Of a stretch of DNA of 64,000 bases, positions 41,577-53,111 are shown in pieces. The position numbers were made by a program, and so were the translations under genes. The notes beneath the pieces were generated by a model. That model was not told the origin of the DNA, ran no database searches, and saw nothing but the letters and a program-made list of their open reading frames with translations. The stretch is from Timaviella obliquedivisa GSE-PSE-MK23-08B (GTDB lineage: Bacteria > Cyanobacteriota > Cyanobacteriia > Elainellales > Elainellaceae). Position 1 is the stretch's first letter; each line of letters starts with the position of its first letter. Where the stretch lies: contig JAHHII010000005.1 of assembly GCA_019358855.1 (NCBI GenBank), positions 1-64,000 of the forward strand, in the 5' to 3' direction.

Positions 41577-42695
41577 TCAAAGCCAAGCTTGGTTAATTGC
41601 TAAGCCACGGCTTCGCATCATTTCCTCAAACAATTCTGTGCTTAGAGCTTGCTCAACTGCCCAAACGCCGGGCTTAACCAGTTGACCAGATAAAATACAC
41701 TGAGCAATACTACCTGTCCCCTGACCTGTAGCCACAGCCGCACTTTCATGTATAAAGTTACTACACTGTCGAACTGATCGCCCCTCTTTTTCTCCAGTGA
41801 TCTCTGACCGAACTGCTACCCCTGTACCGCTAAAGCGATCGCTAATACCTGTCATTCTGTGACTAATCTGAGCTAAAAACTCAATTGCTCTAGGATTCTG
41901 CATAAGTTGCGCGGGAAACCAATGAGCTACTATCCAAGTTAGATGGTTATAGAAGTCTGGTACAGAGCCGAATTTTGTAATCACAGTTTCTACAGGAAAA
42001 CTATTGACTAAGGTGAAAGATTCAGGCATATCAAACCAGTAAACGCCTGCCCGACCAAAAGGAGCCTGAAACTCAATTATTTCTCGGTCAGTATAAGGAT
42101 TCACAGATTGCCATCGACCTTCTATCCACGCCTCAAAGGGTTGCTGAAGACTCAAAAATGTTGTGCGCATAACGGTGACTCCTGCACCGCCTGACCCACC
42201 CACAACATAACTGAGGTGAATCTTACGAACAGTGTCTAATTGTTCTACTCCCTGCCGTACCATACTATTAGAAATACCTGGAAAAACACCGGAGTTGATC
42301 ACGGCAGTCACGCCTGAAGCAATCGCCATTTCATGGAGAGATAACGCTTTTTGAGTGAAGGTGCGATCGTCACTCACATCAATATAAGAAACCCTGTTTT
42401 CAATACAGGATTGTAATATCCAAGTATCTCGCTGGCGGAAGGGTCCTGCGCAATGAACAACAAGGTCACTTTGGGCTATCACTGTTTTTAATTTTTCATA
42501 CTCAAGTAGATCCAGTGTGATATAACTCACTCGCGATCGATCGTGGTCTGTTGAAAATTGTTCTGTTAAGAAAAGATTTGAATTAGGTTTACGCCCAGTA
42601 ATGACCATATTTGCTGAGGTATGAGCCATTAAGTCAGCCAGGACACAACTACCAATTCGTCCTCGTCCGCCAATAACTAAGACTCGCTTTTCCAT
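41577..42695 (-). CDS. Saccharopine-dehydrogenase-like NAD(P)-binding protein
   Basis: 372 residues. N-terminal Rossmann motif VLVIGGRGRIGSCVLADL, then LVVHCAGPFRQRD, DVSDDRTFTQKAL and GVFPGISNSMVRQ typical of the saccharopine dehydrogenase NADP-binding family. Substrate unknown; these proteins are often not in lysine metabolism. 51 bp separate it from the Cys-rich gene downstream, so the two may be co-transcribed. Confidence 0.88.
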   Translation of the reverse strand: MEKRVLVIGGRGRIGSCVLADLMAHTSANMVITGRKPNSNLFLTEQFSTDHDRSRVSYITLDLLEYEKLKTVIAQSDLVVHCAGPFRQRDTWILQSCIENRVSYIDVSDDRTFTQKALSLHEMAIASGVTAVINSGVFPGISNSMVRQGVEQLDTVRKIHLSYVVGGSGGAGVTVMRTTFLSLQQPFEAWIEGRWQSVNPYTDREIIEFQAPFGRAGVYWFDMPESFTLVNSFPVETVITKFGSVPDFYNHLTWIVAHWFPAQLMQNPRAIEFLAQISHRMTGISDRFSGTGVAVRSEITGEKEGRSVRQCSNFIHESAAVATGQGTGSIAQCILSGQLVKPGVWAVEQALSTELFEEMMRSRGLAINQAWL

Positions 42696-43138: not shown

Positions 43139-43513
43139 GTTGGTACCTTCTAGATTAGTAAAAAGACTGCTCGAATCGCATCCTTGGTAGACAGCTTTAA
43201 GCTAATTGTTTCAAAGTATTAATGTTATCTGTCTATAGTATTAAACCTAATTTCTTATTGCAGCAGAAGGGTTGTATAAAAGTAAACATCTCTACTTAGC
43301 ACGACTCTAAGTAAAGCCTTTGCATAAAAATAAGAAAGTTCTAGAGGGTGGTTCCTCTCTTGCTTTAGAGGGATGCGATCGCTCCAGCGAATTTGTAGAT
43401 TACTCATGCCTAGTAGTTTGTATACGTAGAAACAGAATGTGTGATTACATAAATCTGCTTACCTGCGCATGACGTTAACTTAAAAGCAGTTCTAAATCGA
43501 AGGCTGAATTACC
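43139..43513. other. Divergent HLIP-catalase intergenic region
   Basis: Should hold both promoters. A T-rich tract and ttatctgtctatagta near 43228 (complement resembles the tatagacagata part of the motif series) are visible; no frame or terminator seen. Confidence 0.4.
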
Positions 43514-45622
43514 ATGTCTCAGAGAAATCAGGTTAATGAAGGCACTAAAGATGAAAATCTTGAAATTTATCGAAAAGGGGCAGGTGAGCAGCTAACAACT
43601 GACCAAGGTGTCAAAATTGACGATACTGATAACACCTTGAAGATAGGTGAGCGAGGTTCTACTCTACACGAAGATTTTCAATTTCAAGAAAAATTGGCGG
43701 CGTTCGATCGTGAACGTATTCCTGAACGTGTGGTTCATGCAAGAGGGTCAGGTGCACACGGATACTTTCAGCCCTATGAGTCAATGGCAGAGTTTACTAA
43801 GGCAAAGTTTCTGCAAGATCCTGCGGTCCAAACTCCAGTTTTTGTCCGGTTTTCAATTGTGGGCGGCTCAAAAGGCGCAGCAGACACAGTGCGAGATGTC
43901 CGGGGATTTGCAGTTAAGTTTTACACTGAAGAAGGTAACTACGATATTGTAGGTAACAATATTCCTGTCTTCTTTATTCAAGATGCTATTAAGTTTCCAG
44001 ATATCATTCATGCTGTTAAACCTGAGCCCGATCATGAAATGCCTCAGGCTTCCACTGCACATCCAAGCTTTTGGGATTTTATTTCGCTTGTGCCAGAATC
44101 TACGCACATGATTATGTGGTTGTTGTCCGATCGCACTTTGCCTAGAACTTATCGAACAATGGAAGGTTTTGGAGTTCATACCTTTCGTTGGATTAATGCA
44201 GAAGGAAAGTCTAGCTTCGTTAAATATCATTGGAAGCCTGTTGCAGGAGTCCATTCGCATACATTTGATGAAGCCCAAAAAATAGCCGGCACAGATCCAG
44301 ATTTTCACCGTCGCGATTTGTGGGATTCCATTGAGAAAGGTCATTACTTAGAATACGAGCTAGGCGTGCAAATTGTTGCAGACGGAGAGGAATCGAAATT
44401 TGACTTTGATATTTTGGATTCCACTAAGATCATTCCAGAGGAGCAAGTTCCAGTTCGTATAATTGGGAAAATGGTGCTCAATCGCAATCCCGATAACTTC
44501 TTTGCAGAAACGGAGCAAGTTGCCTTTCAGCCTTCTAATGTAGTGCCTGGAGTTGACTTCAGTGATGATCCACTATTGCAGGGTCGCCTCTTCTCGTATC
44601 ACGACACGCAGCTGCATCGCTTAGGCAGTCCTAACTTCAATCATCTGCCCATTAATCGTCCGGTCTGTCCTTTCCACAACAACAACCAGGATGGACGAAT
44701 GCAAATGGCAGTCAAAACAACACGTGTGAACTACTCGCCGAACTCTTTAGGGGATAACCGTCCTGCCCCTTCTCCTGATGTAGAGCAAGCTTTTGTGCAT
44801 TATCCTGAACATCTGGAAGGCACCAAAGTTCGGGAGCGTAGCCCTAGTTTTAGTGAACACTTTAGTCAGGCAACGCTTTTTTGGAACAGTCTTTCAGCGA
44901 TCGAAAAAGATCATCTAGTTGAGGCATCGCACTTTGAGCTAGGTAAGGTTAGCCAAACAGAAATTAAACAACGGATGCTCGATCGCTTTAATACAGTTGA
45001 CCATGAGTTGGCAAAACGAGTTGCAGAAGGACTAGGAATGCCTGCTCCTGAGAAACCTGTCAGTTCTAACCACGGACAAAAGTCAGAGGCTCTGAGTCAA
45101 GCAAATACAGCAAAGGGTGCCGAAGGTCGTAAAGTCGCAATTCTAGCGGCAGCAGGGGCAGATGGAGCACAACTGATGGCACTTAAGCAGGCATTGAAAG
45201 AAGTAGGAGTTGAGGCTGAAGTTGTGTCAAAGTTTGGCGGTAAGATTAAAACAGTAGAGGGTCAAGAGGTAATGGTTGATAAAACCTTTTTGACATCTGC
45301 TTCGGCGATGTTTGATGCAATCTATGTGCCAGGTGGTAAGGCAAGCATTGAGGCATTGAAATCATCTGAAGATGCCTTGCACTTTGTGAGGGAAGCCTTT
45401 AAACACTGCAAACCTATTGCGGCAACCGCGGAGGGAGTAGATTTATTGCAAGCTTCTGGTTTAACGGGTGTTTCGTTAGGCGACTCCTCTGTGCATGATG
45501 ATCAAGGGGTCGTAACAGCTGGTAAGGCTGATGTTAGCCAGGTTGTCAAACCGTTTGTTCAAGCGATCGCTCAGCATCGGTACTGGAATCGTTTAAAAGC
45601 GGTTGAGGTTTCTGTTAAGTAG
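43514..45622 (+). CDS. katE: Large-subunit (HPII-type) catalase with C-terminal DJ-1/PfpI-like domain
   Basis: 702 residues. Clade 2 catalase: active His in VVHARGSGAHGYF (about 76), Asn in VGNNIPVFFI (about 154), heme Tyr in LFSYHDTQLHRLG (about 366). After about residue 540 comes a flavodoxin-like DJ-1/PfpI domain (GRKVAILAAAGADGAQL, YVPGGKASIEALK). Decomposes H2O2 in the cytoplasm, and large-subunit catalases are notably stable. AAGG lies before the ATG. A weak hairpin follows the stop. Confidence 0.96.
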   Translation: MSQRNQVNEGTKDENLEIYRKGAGEQLTTDQGVKIDDTDNTLKIGERGSTLHEDFQFQEKLAAFDRERIPERVVHARGSGAHGYFQPYESMAEFTKAKFLQDPAVQTPVFVRFSIVGGSKGAADTVRDVRGFAVKFYTEEGNYDIVGNNIPVFFIQDAIKFPDIIHAVKPEPDHEMPQASTAHPSFWDFISLVPESTHMIMWLLSDRTLPRTYRTMEGFGVHTFRWINAEGKSSFVKYHWKPVAGVHSHTFDEAQKIAGTDPDFHRRDLWDSIEKGHYLEYELGVQIVADGEESKFDFDILDSTKIIPEEQVPVRIIGKMVLNRNPDNFFAETEQVAFQPSNVVPGVDFSDDPLLQGRLFSYHDTQLHRLGSPNFNHLPINRPVCPFHNNNQDGRMQMAVKTTRVNYSPNSLGDNRPAPSPDVEQAFVHYPEHLEGTKVRERSPSFSEHFSQATLFWNSLSAIEKDHLVEASHFELGKVSQTEIKQRMLDRFNTVDHELAKRVAEGLGMPAPEKPVSSNHGQKSEALSQANTAKGAEGRKVAILAAAGADGAQLMALKQALKEVGVEAEVVSKFGGKIKTVEGQEVMVDKTFLTSASAMFDAIYVPGGKASIEALKSSEDALHFVREAFKHCKPIAATAEGVDLLQASGLTGVSLGDSSVHDDQGVVTAGKADVSQVVKPFVQAIAQHRYWNRLKAVEVSVK

Positions 45623-45682: not shown

Positions 45683-45728
45683 ATGAACAACTGAGTATAA
45701 GTCTGAATTGGAGTTTAACTATTGCATT

Positions 45729-46844
45729 ATGATTACGAGTGTAGATAATAGGTCTAAATTCTCAAGAACTACTGACGTGTTCTCAACCTATTGCAGCGTT
45801 TCTGATTATGCTGAGGCAGAGCAACAGTTTATCCAATTGCTTAATCTAGATAATCTAGATCAGCAGATCAGCCAGCAGCCTAGCTTAGTCAGAAAGTTTG
45901 AGTCAAGTTTGACACAGGCAATTGAGTCTGCTTGTAACAACGACGTTGCAGACGATGCTGCTTGTTTGTTTTTACAGCGTATTCTGTACCGAATTAATCG
46001 CTTGAACCTGTTTTGGTATGATGACCTACAACACTATAAGAACGAGCGGTCTTACTATTTGCAACAGGTACGCGATCGCATTGAGACAGTTTGGCAAAAC
46101 TGGGAAACTTCACACTTTGATATTCAGCAATATCAGGAGTTGGACGTAGAGCAAGCTTTAACAACGCGCGCTGAAGTAGATTTAAATCCGCCTGTAACAG
46201 AAAGCAAGCGCTACTTGTGTGAAACTTTAACGTTTGAAGGATATCGCTGGCTCTTGGCGATTGTGTCTTTAGATGGGCTAGTTGAAGCGAGCCGAATGTC
46301 TCGGATCTTAGGAGGCGCAAGCAACGAAATCCAGGCAATGCTGATTCGTGTGTTGATGGAGGAATATGGAAACGGACGCTTCAACCGTAAGCATTCCACG
46401 TTTTTTGCTCAGATGATGCAGGAAGTAGGTCTAAACACAGAGCCAGAAGCATATTTTGATCAGGCTCCATGGGAGTTACTAGCGGGCATTAATCACAACT
46501 TTCTGTTGACCGAACGTAAACGCTACTTCCTACGCTACAACGGTGGGTTAACTTATTTTGAGATTGTAGGACCCTCAATCTATCGAGATTATATGGCTGC
46601 TGCTGGTAGGCTAGGGCTGTCAGATGCTGCTATGGGCTACTGGGAGTTGCATATTCGTGAGGATGAACGTCATGGACAATGGATGTTGCAAGAGGTTGCT
46701 TTTCCATTGGCAAAGATGTATCCCGCTAATGCTTGGGAGCTTGTATTAGGCTATGACCAAGAGAAGCTAATTGGCGATCGGGCGGGAGCAGCTATCATCA
46801 ACACAATTCAAACAGCTGAATTATCAAGAAATCAAGTTTTATGA
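45729..46844 (+). CDS. Heme-oxygenase-fold, iron-containing redox enzyme family
   Basis: 371 residues, helical. The C-terminal half matches the iron-containing redox enzyme (HDO-like) family: LMEEYGNGRFNRKHSTFF (Glu and His ligands, about residue 205-222) and WELHIREDERHGQWML (Glu, Asp and His, about 300-315). Known members oxidise small molecules with a di-iron centre (for example the alkene-forming UndA and the N-oxygenating SznF). The N-terminal 140 residues are an additional helical part. The stop overlaps the methyltransferase start (ATGA), so the two probably act together. ATG 45729; TTG 45708 possible. Substrate unknown. Confidence 0.82.
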   Translation: MITSVDNRSKFSRTTDVFSTYCSVSDYAEAEQQFIQLLNLDNLDQQISQQPSLVRKFESSLTQAIESACNNDVADDAACLFLQRILYRINRLNLFWYDDLQHYKNERSYYLQQVRDRIETVWQNWETSHFDIQQYQELDVEQALTTRAEVDLNPPVTESKRYLCETLTFEGYRWLLAIVSLDGLVEASRMSRILGGASNEIQAMLIRVLMEEYGNGRFNRKHSTFFAQMMQEVGLNTEPEAYFDQAPWELLAGINHNFLLTERKRYFLRYNGGLTYFEIVGPSIYRDYMAAAGRLGLSDAAMGYWELHIREDERHGQWMLQEVAFPLAKMYPANAWELVLGYDQEKLIGDRAGAAIINTIQTAELSRNQVL

Positions 46845-47629
46845 AGAAGGCAGTCATGAACACAGTGAAACTCAACTCGCCTAAACCTAGTCTATCTAGA
46901 ACAGGATCGCCCGAACTTAAGTCATATTCTCCTGATGATGTGTTCTTCTGTCCTGAAGAATCACAATTTTATTCTCAATGCCTTGAAAAAATGATATTTA
47001 ATCGGTGCGAACCCTTTGAGCAGGTCATTGAGTTTGGAACAGGTGATGGTACTCCTGTGATCAGCGGTTTGTTAAAGACAAGATTTGCTGGAACTATTTA
47101 CGGTTATGAACTTAGTAGTTCTGCCTATGCAGTTGCTCAAAATAGGATTAAGCAGTATCAGCTTAGCGACAAATACAAGATTCATAATCAGTGTTTTTTT
47201 GAAGGGTATGAGTCAATTAATGCAAATTACTTAATTGCCAATCCTCCTTATATCCCTTCACCTGATGATTCCATTTATATGCCTGCCCTCCATGGAGGAA
47301 TAGATGGTGCCACTATTACTAACAAGTTGTTATCAGTAGGCTGTCAAACTGTTCTATTGATGGTGTCGGCTTACTCTAACCCTGTTGAGACTATTCAACA
47401 TGCGATCGATGAAGGATATAGTGTTATTGATTTCATGGTCACTCCATTGCAGTTTGGTTACTATAGCTCAGAGCCTAAAGTGAGAGATTGGATTACCAAA
47501 CTGCGAGAAGAAAAGAAGGCATTTTACTCGTCTAATATTTATTTCTTAGCAGGTGTTTTATTTCAACGAAAAACTGTTGGAAAGACGGACTTATCATCTG
47601 AGCTAATTAAAGTAATTACAGCTTTGTAG
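46841..47629 (+). CDS. SAM-dependent methyltransferase
   Basis: 262 residues. Rossmann-fold motif I is VIEFGTGDGTPV (about 63-74) with acidic ELSSSAYA after strand 2; motif IV is ANPPYIP (about 137-143), the NPPY signature of PrmC-type and N6-type methyltransferases. It starts inside the stop of the oxidase gene (ATGA at 46841-46844), so translation is coupled. Substrate unknown. The stop is followed by a 25-bp tandem duplication and a family A element. Confidence 0.85.
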   Translation: MKKAVMNTVKLNSPKPSLSRTGSPELKSYSPDDVFFCPEESQFYSQCLEKMIFNRCEPFEQVIEFGTGDGTPVISGLLKTRFAGTIYGYELSSSAYAVAQNRIKQYQLSDKYKIHNQCFFEGYESINANYLIANPPYIPSPDDSIYMPALHGGIDGATITNKLLSVGCQTVLLMVSAYSNPVETIQHAIDEGYSVIDFMVTPLQFGYYSSEPKVRDWITKLREEKKAFYSSNIYFLAGVLFQRKTVGKTDLSSELIKVITAL

Positions 47630-47729
47630 GTAGCAGATTGAAGTGCTGCTAAGCTTAGATGTATTTATCTTTCTTATAGTAGAAAGAAACAATGTGGCTC
47701 AAAGTCCTTCTTCAAAGAAGAGGAACTTT

Positions 47730-47779
47730 GATTAGAATAGTAATATCTTACTAAGATTAGAATAGTAATATCTTACTAA
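47730..47779. repeat. 25-bp perfect tandem duplication
   Basis: gattagaatagtaatatctt... occurs at 47730-47754 and again at 47755-47779 without mismatch, in the gap after the methyltransferase gene. Confidence 0.9.
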
Positions 47780-47834: not shown

Positions 47835-47984
47835 GAGGATGTCTGAGAAGTATCAAAGATTCTTACACTCGCCCCCCAGCCCCCCATTTTGGGAGACTTC
47901 CGAGCCACTCCTTCTTGAAAGTCCCCCAAAATGGGGGATTTAGAGGGCAGGTTGAATCGCAATCTAGACTTCTCAGACAACCTC
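47835..47984 (+). mobile_element. Family A element, copy 4 (150 bp)
   Basis: 150 bp with the same ends as the other copies (gaggatgtctgagaagtat ... cttctcagacaacctc). Flanking triplets are TAG and TAA, so the target duplication has one changed base. It ends five bases before the DoxX stop. Confidence 0.85.
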
Positions 47985-47988
47985 TAAG

Positions 47989-48399
47989 TTATTTAGTGAC
48001 TTCTCTTGAAGTGGAAGACTTAAAGGACGGCTTTGTATACCACCAGGCCCAAGCAATTAGCACTGCCTGAAAAGGTAGTCTTAACCAATAAAGCCAGGGA
48101 TAATCGGGAATTCCTTCAATAGAAATACTATTTATGGCTTGATTAATGTTGGCAGGAAAGACAGCAATGAATAAGGCAATTATTCCCCAAGCAGCCGCTA
48201 CGCTGACCGAAGGAACTAGTAAGCTCAGTCCTCCTAAAATCTCAAAAAAACCACTAATATAAACTAGCCCCAATGGTGAAGGCAGCTGTGGTGGAACGAT
48301 CCTAGCGAATTGTTCAGGCTTTATAAAGTGAGTGATGCCAACTATGGTTAAAGAGACAGAAAGAATGACTCGAAGAATTTCTTTTCTATTTACAATCAT
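47989..48399 (-). CDS. DoxX-family membrane protein
   Basis: 136 residues with four helices: ILRVILSVSLTIVGITHFI, then GLVYISGFFEILGGLSLLVP, WGIIALFIAVFP and a C-terminal helix with RLPFQAVLIAWAWWYTKP. The THF-P-QFARIVPP pattern fits the DoxX-like group. Members often take part in thiol or oxidative-stress membrane complexes. A family A element abuts the 3' end. Confidence 0.88.
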   Translation of the reverse strand: MIVNRKEILRVILSVSLTIVGITHFIKPEQFARIVPPQLPSPLGLVYISGFFEILGGLSLLVPSVSVAAAWGIIALFIAVFPANINQAINSISIEGIPDYPWLYWLRLPFQAVLIAWAWWYTKPSFKSSTSREVTK

Positions 48400-51749: not shown

Positions 51750-53111
51750 CTAGCCTTCTTTTGTCTCTAATCGCCCAGATCGTATGGCTTCCTTTAGCAC
51801 TCGATAATCTTGCTCAACTTGATGGGCATAAGCCGCGGCAAAATCAGTCACAGCTTGATCGAATGCGTCAGTTTTACCGAGGTAGCCGCCGATTAAAGCC
51901 GGATCACCAGTGCGAGAGTGTGCACGGGCTAATGTGGAGCCGCAAATTTTTCCATAATCTTCTAATCTGTGGGCAGACATGCCTTTGAGCTTAATGGAAG
52001 TCTTCATGTCTTTGAGTTGACGGAAATAGAAGTCTTGCCGCTCAGGACTACTTGTCCATCCTAAAAAAATGTCACTAGCCGCTTGCATTAAGCGTTGACC
52101 GCTGACAATGCGCTGTCCCTCATGGGCATAGGGACTTTTCCCTGCGTAGGGTTCTAAGACGGATGGTCTGGCTTCTTTGTATTGAAGGAGTAAGGGGTCG
52201 TTGTTATTGTCTAACAGTAGAGCAACGCCACAGTGGGTGCCGACGCTACCAACACCCACTACTTTTAACGCGACATCGACTAAGCGGTACCGATCGAGCA
52301 GAAACTGGCGATCGACCTGAAGCGTATCCCGATATTGCTCAAATAGGACTTGAATTTCATCAAAGTACTCATCTTGGTTAGGCAGATGATAAAGCAGAGG
52401 GGGGTTATCCACAAAGCGACGTTGCCCGTTTACTTCCTCAGTCAGTTGATGAAATGCTTGTCCTAAAGTGCGGGTAAATGCTTTGTTTGCCATTTTTACC
52501 CAATGGCTGCGTGTGTCTTCCTCAGGAGCATTTTCAATCAACAAATCTGCTTCTAGTCGGGCATACCAAACTTCTATGGTTTGTAGGTGACTATAGCGAT
52601 CGATCGCCAGTCGGTAGGCGCGCGCGGCTGCTAATGCGGCTTCACAGCAGTCGTGATCAGAAAGACGCAGTTCACGACCCGCCAGAACAATGCTGGTGAC
52701 AAGTCGTTTCACATCCCATTCCCAGGGAGCAATTAGCGTTTCGTCAAAATCATTGAGATCAAAAATGAGATTGCGTTCAGGCGTAGCAAAGCCACCAAAG
52801 TTAAGAAGGTGGCAATCTCCACAGGCTTGCACCTGAATTTGTGTCGTAGGAGTCGTTGCCAAATCTGCTGCCAAGATAGCAGCACTGCCTCGAAAGAAAG
52901 TAAAAGTAGATTGCATCATCCGCCAATGCCGAATGGGAACCAAATTGGGGATCCGTCCTTGGTTAGATTTTTCTATGAGACTAATTGGGTCAGCCCGATC
53001 GCTGGAAACTTGCCATTCTCGGTGAGCCGATCGCGGTACAGCTTGGCGCAAGGCTTTTCCGGCAGCTTGGCGATCGCTGCGTGATTGAGAAGCCGAAGGT
53101 GAATGAGCCAT
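51750..53111 (-). CDS. DUF2252 protein
   Basis: 453 residues, soluble. DUF2252 motifs: RYDP-like entry (LVPIRHWRMMQSTFTFFRG), ACGDCHLLNFGGF, FDLNDFDETLIAPWEWDVKRL and RSHSRTGDPA-type end. The fold resembles a kinase-like phosphotransferase (HxD-like DCHLLN). Function unknown; widespread in bacteria living in stressful settings. The Asp-Phe-Asp pair in LNDFDET could bind metal. Confidence 0.9.
   Translation of the reverse strand: MAHSPSASQSRSDRQAAGKALRQAVPRSAHREWQVSSDRADPISLIEKSNQGRIPNLVPIRHWRMMQSTFTFFRGSAAILAADLATTPTTQIQVQACGDCHLLNFGGFATPERNLIFDLNDFDETLIAPWEWDVKRLVTSIVLAGRELRLSDHDCCEAALAAARAYRLAIDRYSHLQTIEVWYARLEADLLIENAPEEDTRSHWVKMANKAFTRTLGQAFHQLTEEVNGQRRFVDNPPLLYHLPNQDEYFDEIQVLFEQYRDTLQVDRQFLLDRYRLVDVALKVVGVGSVGTHCGVALLLDNNNDPLLLQYKEARPSVLEPYAGKSPYAHEGQRIVSGQRLMQAASDIFLGWTSSPERQDFYFRQLKDMKTSIKLKGMSAHRLEDYGKICGSTLARAHSRTGDPALIGGYLGKTDAFDQAVTDFAAAYAHQVEQDYRVLKEAIRSGRLETKEG

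Follow-up and report, generated by a model that had tools for sequence, protein, structure and literature searches.

Here, we demonstrate that a heme-oxygenase-fold diiron oxidase (HDO) and a class I S-adenosylmethionine (SAM) methyltransferase (MT), encoded by two adjoining genes of the cyanobacterium Timaviella obliquedivisa GSE-PSE-MK23-08B, form a real functional unit that is spread widely through cyanobacterial families. The genes lie on contig C5 (JAHHII010000005.1) of a 4.9-Mb draft genome in 29 contigs, within a stretch of 64 kb that was analyzed as a whole and that we call the window. With a probability of roughly one half, we believe that the two enzymes act in successive steps of one widespread cyanobacterial pathway, in which the HDO would carry out an N-oxidation, the MT would then methylate, and expression would be tied to nitrogen. 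The first half of this reading builds on fold and metal ligands, the order of the steps on co-occurrence, and the substrate class on relatives only.

The distribution of the two genes makes the case for a unit. In a sample of 386 cyanobacterial genomes, HDO and MT each match 30, and the two sets of 30 are identical; in a second sample of 290 genomes, the HDO was found in 70, the MT in 62 and both in 60 (Fisher p 7e-49). These surveys were centered on cyanobacteria and the two samples overlap, with identical coordinates appearing under different handles (for example G080 and G581); a gene was scored as absent when the draft, and completeness varied among these, gave no match at E 1e-10, and Fisher values ignore kinship. 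In 47 of the 60 genomes with both genes, the MT lies downstream on the same strand within 1 kb, the matched stretches being 5-985 nt apart, while it is convergent within 1 kb in eight and on another contig in five. HDO and MT are thus within 1 kb of each other, in either orientation, in 55 of 60 genomes, and a linkage that persists when one gene is inverted is more than an accident of operon structure. The original prediction, made from the sequence of the window, had proposed conserved co-occurrence as a check on the pair, and the pair is indeed conserved. It had also derived a single pathway from translational coupling. The HDO gene (45729-46844, + strand; 371 aa from the ATG, stop included, with an in-frame TTG at 45708 on its 5' side) and the MT gene (46841-47629, + strand; 262 aa) do overlap in the sequence ATGA at 46841-46844, in which the MT start codon (46841-46843) and the HDO stop codon TGA (46842-46844) have two bases in common. 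This 4-nt overlap is found, within the 81 loci compared, in the window, its nearest listed relative L004 (a Leptolyngbyaceae metagenome-assembled genome, MAG) and L008; overlaps of 23 or 68 nt arise in L023, L032 and L079 if the longest open reading frames (ORFs) are taken, and the remaining MT-holding loci have none. The functional unit therefore stands, whereas coupling as its basis does not, since the overlap occurs in few relatives and the genes are also found convergent or on separate contigs.

The same association is seen at the level of individual loci. One scan of genome contigs gave 109 confirmed relatives, and the MT is present on 73 of the best 80 of these that were kept (that of L065 is cut by the locus end). 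It is missing from L019, L022, L030, L043, L044, L056 and L071; whole-genome searches located a full MT elsewhere for L019 and L071, a 46-residue piece only for L030, and none for the other four. The T. obliquedivisa genome itself holds a single HDO copy and a single full MT, and a second MT-like match on contig C29 (35% identity over 103 residues) is probably the housekeeping HemK/PrmC. Signs of decay were found in G074 (both genes partial), G367 (the C-terminal part of the HDO beside the MT) and G080 (an HDO fragment with a stop beside the MT, and a second, intact HDO gene on a separate contig); the HDO matches of G323 and G142 list internal stops, yet correspond to open frames of 351 and 382 aa. 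A plasmid collection gave 16 remote HDO matches, of at most ~31% identity, and no MT match. The HDOs from Tatlockia, Gracilibacteria and Chloroflexaceae MAGs (L022, L032, L033) nest inside the cyanobacteria in the tree, and these contigs are probably mislabeled or contaminated. The original prediction had envisaged a small natural-product gene pair; the wide spread through families speaks for a conserved physiological function and not for a strain-specific natural-product cluster, and we read the genes as an undescribed, widespread two-step pathway.

The identity of the first enzyme as an iron-dependent oxidase of the heme-oxygenase fold, as originally proposed, is well founded. PF14518 ('Iron-containing redox enzyme') matches the HDO with 99.9 bits against a cut-off of 28.9 and is its sole domain above cut-off; unlike SznF, the 371-aa protein has no C-terminal cupin. 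Seven metal ligands align in register with SznF and RohS in printed alignments: E186 (codon 46284-46286, core helix 1), E212 and H222 (codon stretch 46362-46394, core helix 2, EYGNGRFNRKH), E278 (46560-46562, auxiliary helix) and H308, D312 and H315 (46650-46673, core helix 3, HIREDERH), all on the + strand and all invariant in 81 of 81 aligned sequences (the window plus 80 loci). The ligand motifs GRFNRKH (H222) and HIREDERH, which had been picked out from the window alone, are thus real, E186, E212 and E278 complete the set, and the alignment with HDO structures that had been suggested as a check agrees at every ligand. We take the seven aligned positions to be the iron-binding residues of SznF. 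With the extra ligand E278, the set becomes the three-histidine/four-carboxylate (3H/4C) type as in SznF, and this HDO class and its extra Glu are described in PMC13108848. An AlphaFold2 model (mean pLDDT 78.6, pTM 0.80) has the seven-helix heme-oxygenase fold, with Z scores of up to 31 on a DALI-like scale against HDO structures: 31.0 for HrmI (331 residues, rmsd 3.4), 25.6 for SznF, 24.9 for RohS, 23.8 for 3bjd, to which no function is assigned, and 23.0 for FlcD. BesC, CADD, UndA, PolF and AetD score at most 16.7, and their alignments start only at about residue 133-141 of the model, leaving out its N-terminal domain. In a Foldseek search of the PDB, the first 18 of 50 listed rows are HrmI, SznF and RohS chains (few proteins, many chains), and a 15-row HDO profile finds the RohS structure PbrRohS at 1.8e-19, SznF at ~5e-12 and HrmI at 0.0016. 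The N-oxygenases HrmI, SznF and RohS are thus the closest relatives in fold and sequence, with FlcD close behind, and the modeled HDO has the architecture of the N-oxygenase group, although FlcD, whose chemistry is different, has this architecture too.

Each of these relatives also differs from the HDO. HrmI, a lysine N6-oxygenase (PDB 9n1x, 9nh9) that we take to be part of a natural-product cluster, is the best structural match and aligns over 331 of 343 residues with the N-terminal helical domain included, but has 16% identity and a weak profile match; we know of no MT partner of the present kind for it. RohS, the 2-aminoimidazole N-oxygenase of azomycin, is closest by sequence, but has 306 aa, and its alignment with the model begins only at residue 74 or 77, leaving the first N-terminal helices uncovered. 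SznF, the methylarginine N-hydroxylase of the streptozotocin pathway, has a C-terminal cupin that makes the N-nitroso group, and its pathway also includes a methyltransferase, SznE. The streptozotocin substrate is N-methylated beforehand according to PMC13108848, whereas co-occurrence suggests methylation after oxidation here. To the extent that sequence allows a judgment, the HDO works like HrmI, SznF and RohS, but the identities of 15-21% in the structural alignments, the missing cupin and the different partner gene place it outside the characterized HDO types. A further likeness, an HDO near an annotated methyltransferase, is offered by plasmid clusters of Pantoea dispersa and Methylobacterium indicum that combine HDO, Rieske protein, L11-type methyltransferase and ATP-grasp; there, the HDO is 27-31% identical over about half of the query, the MT is a different one, and additional genes are present. 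Plasmid-borne longer HDOs adjoining a Rieske protein were observed in L084, L085, L086 and L087, with ATP-grasp also on the Pantoea, Methylobacterium and Gloeothece plasmids and an L11-type methyltransferase on the Pantoea and Methylobacterium ones; they look like a family of small mobile pathways. A far more divergent HDO copy (37-43% identical; L107, L114, L116) exists in G476, G562 and G655, genomes in which the commoner HDO, or part of it, is present as well. In the literature searched, which gave partial coverage and lay mostly outside subscription journals, we found no described HDO-MT system, in line with the earlier suggestion that the pair had not been described.

The second enzyme is, at the level of fold, a HemK/PrmC-like class I methyltransferase. 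Its NPPY motif (residues 134-137) is invariant in 17 of 17 alignment rows, HemK is the first Foldseek match (TM ~0.5), and the match to a HemK entry of the PDB has an E value of 2e-5. It remains below the cut-off of every NCBIfam model matched, reaching 36.8 bits with the best of these, the HemK family (cut-off 115.5), and 35 bits with PrmC (cut-off 199.1), the latter over only ~90-105 residues. With scores so far below the cut-offs and a TM of ~0.5 to the best structures, the name is best kept general. The MT thus shares NPPY and the SAM fold with the PrmC/HemK N5-glutamine methyltransferases, but differs in falling far under the family cut-offs, and a separate HemK-like match stands on C29 of its own genome. 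An anti-phage function was considered and rejected: PADLOC gave no match for the HDO or for the DUF3891 protein described below, and weak ones only for the MT.

The exceptions to co-occurrence are asymmetric. Only G518 and G472 among the 62 MT genomes lack an HDO, and both of their MTs are truncated, the former being a 71-position fragment with a stop and the latter missing its first 61 residues with stop codons upstream. HDO genes without an MT match were found in G402 and G406 (none in whole-genome searches either), in G655, which has the divergent copy L116 plus a 148-residue contig-edge piece (L117) with the same neighbors as L106, and in G476, G494, G552, G662, G666, G684 and G690. The HDOs of these last seven are 52-57% identical and share a single branch of the tree with the HDO of G633, a genome in which the MT lies on a separate contig. 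No partner gene is common to all seven; three neighbors were examined, which we take, by reading alone, to resemble endonuclease V, SufU and MOSC proteins, and none is shared throughout. Because no intact MT occurs without HDO in these samples, but HDO sometimes occurs without MT, the pattern suggests that the HDO step comes first and that of the MT second. Purifying selection acts on both genes (dN/dS against L004 ~0.10 for HDO and 0.085 for MT). The HDO tree of 95 rows follows taxonomy broadly, although Trichormus/Anabaena loci L014-L016 cluster with Pseudanabaena loci L018, L026 and L034 (support 100/94). The gene order HDO-DUF3891-MT occurs in both groups, which suggests that the three genes were transferred together.

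DUF3891 (PF13030) is a candidate third gene of the system in part of its range. The earlier statement that nothing more of a cluster is seen therefore needs qualifying, since DUF3891 co-occurs with the pair and lies inside the operon in some relatives. It stands between HDO and MT in L014, L015, L016, L026 and L103, after the HDO at a contig end in L056, and upstream of the HDO in L037, L065, L068 and L069, with remnants between HDO and MT in L018, L098 and the near-identical matches L101 and L151. DUF3891 is present in 38 of 386 genomes, namely in 22 of 30 with HDO (G109 with a remnant only, G142 with a split gene) and in 16 of 356 without (a weak match in G245, partial genes or genes with stops in G300 and G400), p 2e-19 with kinship ignored. 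In T. obliquedivisa, the copy is ~29 kb off and beyond the window (C5:76370-77011). H18, H47, H48, D49, H104 and D155 are invariant in DUF3891 and point to an HD-domain metal protein; this reading was dropped, as neither the PDB profile search nor Pfam, taken to E 10, listed an HD family. A literature search on the name found no paper.

A link to nitrogen is suggested by a palindrome in front of the HDO genes. Ten upstream patterns were tested, followed by controls; upstream regions were cut from fixed anchors and not from individually fixed HDO start codons, and a few boxes may lie within the coding start. Of 69 regions upstream of HDO genes, 42 contain GTA-N8-TAC (dinucleotide shuffles: mean 4.8, maximum 10), compared with 0-10 for half-site spacings of 3-7 and 9-14, and with 29 of 464 regions upstream of other ORFs of at least 200 aa in the same loci. 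An enlarged, distinct set gave 48 of 110, with 1-13 for other spacings. When 832 palindromic half-site/spacing motifs were ranked over 108 regions, GTA-N8-TAC came second (45 against 5.4 expected), behind CGATCG, which we take to be the core of the HIP1 repeat. Of 25 other gene clusters listed for the same loci, 22 have zero to two boxes, and the MT cluster, mostly in operons, has four in 76. The MT genes are the most telling. Where the MT does not stand behind an HDO on the same strand, 11 of 26 loci (9 of 24 distinct) show a box of its own at up to 200 nt and 13 of 26 (11 of 24 distinct; other spacings 0-4) at up to 330 nt; for MT genes behind an HDO, where part of the scanned sequence codes for the HDO itself, the counts are 2 of 84 and 3 of 84, respectively. 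These data establish a spacing-specific site upstream of HDO. GTAN8TAC is the consensus of the nitrogen-control regulator NtcA according to PMC3898017, making NtcA the putative regulator. LexA, Fur-like, PhoB and RpaB/HLR1 patterns were not enriched upstream of HDO. By eye, a conserved-looking block, TATAGAAC...CGATAGATGG or AGCTCTTGCGACAGATGG, was also noticed tens of nt before non-operon MT starts in L130, L132, L140, L142, L148 and L051, where it stands besides the GTA-N8-TAC box.

The pathway that we favor would run as follows. The HDO would bind two irons through its 3-His/4-carboxylate set, activate O2 and, by analogy to HrmI, SznF and RohS, oxidize a nitrogen function, such as that of an amine, guanidine or amidine, in a small substrate resembling an amino acid; the MT would then use SAM to methylate this product or a near derivative, the NPPY motif favoring a nitrogen acceptor. 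In genomes that have it, DUF3891 may contribute a step or regulate one, and expression would probably follow nitrogen status through the GTA-N8-TAC sites in many lineages. We tentatively consider it possible that the outcome is a nitrogen-controlled metabolite that has so far gone unseen, although species of Nostoc, Calothrix, Scytonema, Fischerella and many others would make it. N-oxygenation of a common amino acid or guanidine compound by the HDO would then be followed by the action of DUF3891 (where present) and MT, which complete the molecule, and the methylated, N-oxygenated product would serve as a signal, as a metal ligand or in nitrogen storage or stress.

Several observations weigh against the favored pathway. 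HDO stands without an MT match in 10 of 70 HDO genomes, FlcD, which excises carbon, scores close behind the N-oxygenases, and HDOs with the same primary ligands may catalyze different reactions, as stated in PMC13108848. The distance of the MT from the HemK/PrmC cut-offs makes its acceptor atom unsure. On the side of regulation, the exact box is found in fewer than half of the 110 distinct HDO upstream regions, two small unrelated clusters (c13, c14) reach 3 of 7 and 4 of 8 boxes, and a single genus (L130, L132, L133, L140) accounts for four of the 11 distinct MT boxes. The distance between box and start codon varies with lineage, from 8 nt to well above 100 nt, with some boxes only 8-30 nt away, and only two of the seven MT-less HDOs have one while five have none, which speaks against a simple NtcA reading. 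A canonical NtcA promoter is not supported: the TAN3T -10 element is not enriched at NtcA class II spacing (7 of 61 boxes) and is no commoner there than at other distances, and box plus TAN3T occurs in 4 of 69 regions against a shuffle mean of 1.1 and values of up to 5. The window itself has no box directly upstream of HDO. A palindrome upstream of the neighboring catalase gene (GTAAACATCTCTAC, 43282-43295, + strand) is a weak candidate site for all three consecutive genes and a second nearby box lies at 46016 within the HDO gene, but both may be chance, since there are 11 such sites in 64 kb.

The same evidence has to be set against other explanations. The HDO could serve stress protection together with the catalase, limiting peroxide or iron damage on drying, with the MT serving or tuning the same protective small molecule, so that the chemistry may still be small-molecule synthesis. 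We regard this as rather unlikely. Many of the carriers belong to terrestrial or mat-forming genera, among them Scytonema, Nostoc, Gloeocapsopsis and Brasilonema, and a KatE-type catalase gene stands 106 nt upstream of HDO on the same strand. The model for this idea is DtpC of Acinetobacter baumannii, a predicted HDO co-transcribed with KatE, of which E143, H153 and H232 are needed for desiccation survival and whose E143-H153 spacing of 10 equals that of E212 and H222, as given in PMC13232832. However, the catalase adjoins HDO in the window alone among the 81 loci, the order is HDO then KatE there and KatE then HDO here, and the two HDOs are likened at the level of the superfamily. Term searches in the available text of PMC13232832 found neither methyltransferase nor cyanobacteria.

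Instead of a metabolite, the MT might modify a protein, possibly the HDO itself, to activate or protect it. HemK relatives methylate glutamine amides of proteins, and the closest named relatives of the MT are protein N5-glutamine methyltransferases; moreover, no intact MT was found without HDO in the searched samples. Seven genomes of one HDO branch do without an MT match, though, and the resemblance to PrmC is both short and far below cut-off, so that we consider a protein target unlikely. Quite improbable, in our view, is nitrogen scavenging, in which the HDO would oxidatively break down an amino acid or guanidine compound when nitrogen is short. The enrichment of GTA-N8-TAC is in line with it, and so are the substrates of relatives, RohS acting on aminoimidazole. 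Other N-oxygenase relatives act on lysine and methylarginine according to PMC13108848. A methyl-transfer step would nevertheless be unusual for catabolism, and no catabolic neighbor recurs widely (14 clusters listed, 10 family-tested), the methionine-gamma-lyase-like gene of cluster c18 being nearby in six Calothrix loci only. Finally, the genes flanking the pair vary between genomes, as they would around two unrelated genes that are neighbors by chance, but this explanation is refuted by the shared set of 30 genomes and the close linkage in 55 of 60, and its probability is negligible.

The surroundings of the pair differ from genome to genome in the neighborhood table. In the window, the upstream gene encodes a large KatE-type catalase with a DJ-1/PfpI C-terminal domain by Pfam (43514-45622, + strand). 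The catalase was rejected as a conserved third gene, as its ORF clusters with none from the other 80 loci; it is possibly co-transcribed with HDO in the window lineage only. FtsL/FtsI-like genes upstream in 20 loci, names that we presume from reading the sequences alone, were taken as Nostocales synteny and not as partner genes. Directly 3' of the MT gene, there are two tandem copies of a 25-nt A+T-rich repeat (47725-47774), followed by a MITE-like element (47835-47984) with terminal inverted repeats of 17 nt (94% complementary) and a second inverted repeat of 24 nt inside it (47881-47937). Other neighbors on the - strand are a saccharopine-dehydrogenase-like protein (41577-42695), whose cluster c25 is also near the pair in L012 and L013, a DoxX-like membrane protein barely over the Pfam cut-off (47989-48399) and a DUF2252 protein (51750-53111, 477.7 bits). 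Elsewhere, a fused DNA methylase and EcoO109I-type restriction enzyme was noted at L083:1223-3031 (- strand); its cluster c10 is near the pair in eight Calothrix/Tolypothrix loci, the L083 member alone having been family-searched.

Only about a dozen HDOs have a validated function, according to PMC13108848, and many of the validated enzymes come from natural-product pathways. The HDO described here represents a subfamily that many families of cyanobacteria have retained, together with a methyltransferase that is a near-obligate partner and possibly under nitrogen control. As there are two genes that are easy to delete or to move, the question of their function is directly testable. If the pair makes a metabolite, this compound would be common to many ordinary cyanobacteria, and it is one for which we found no name.

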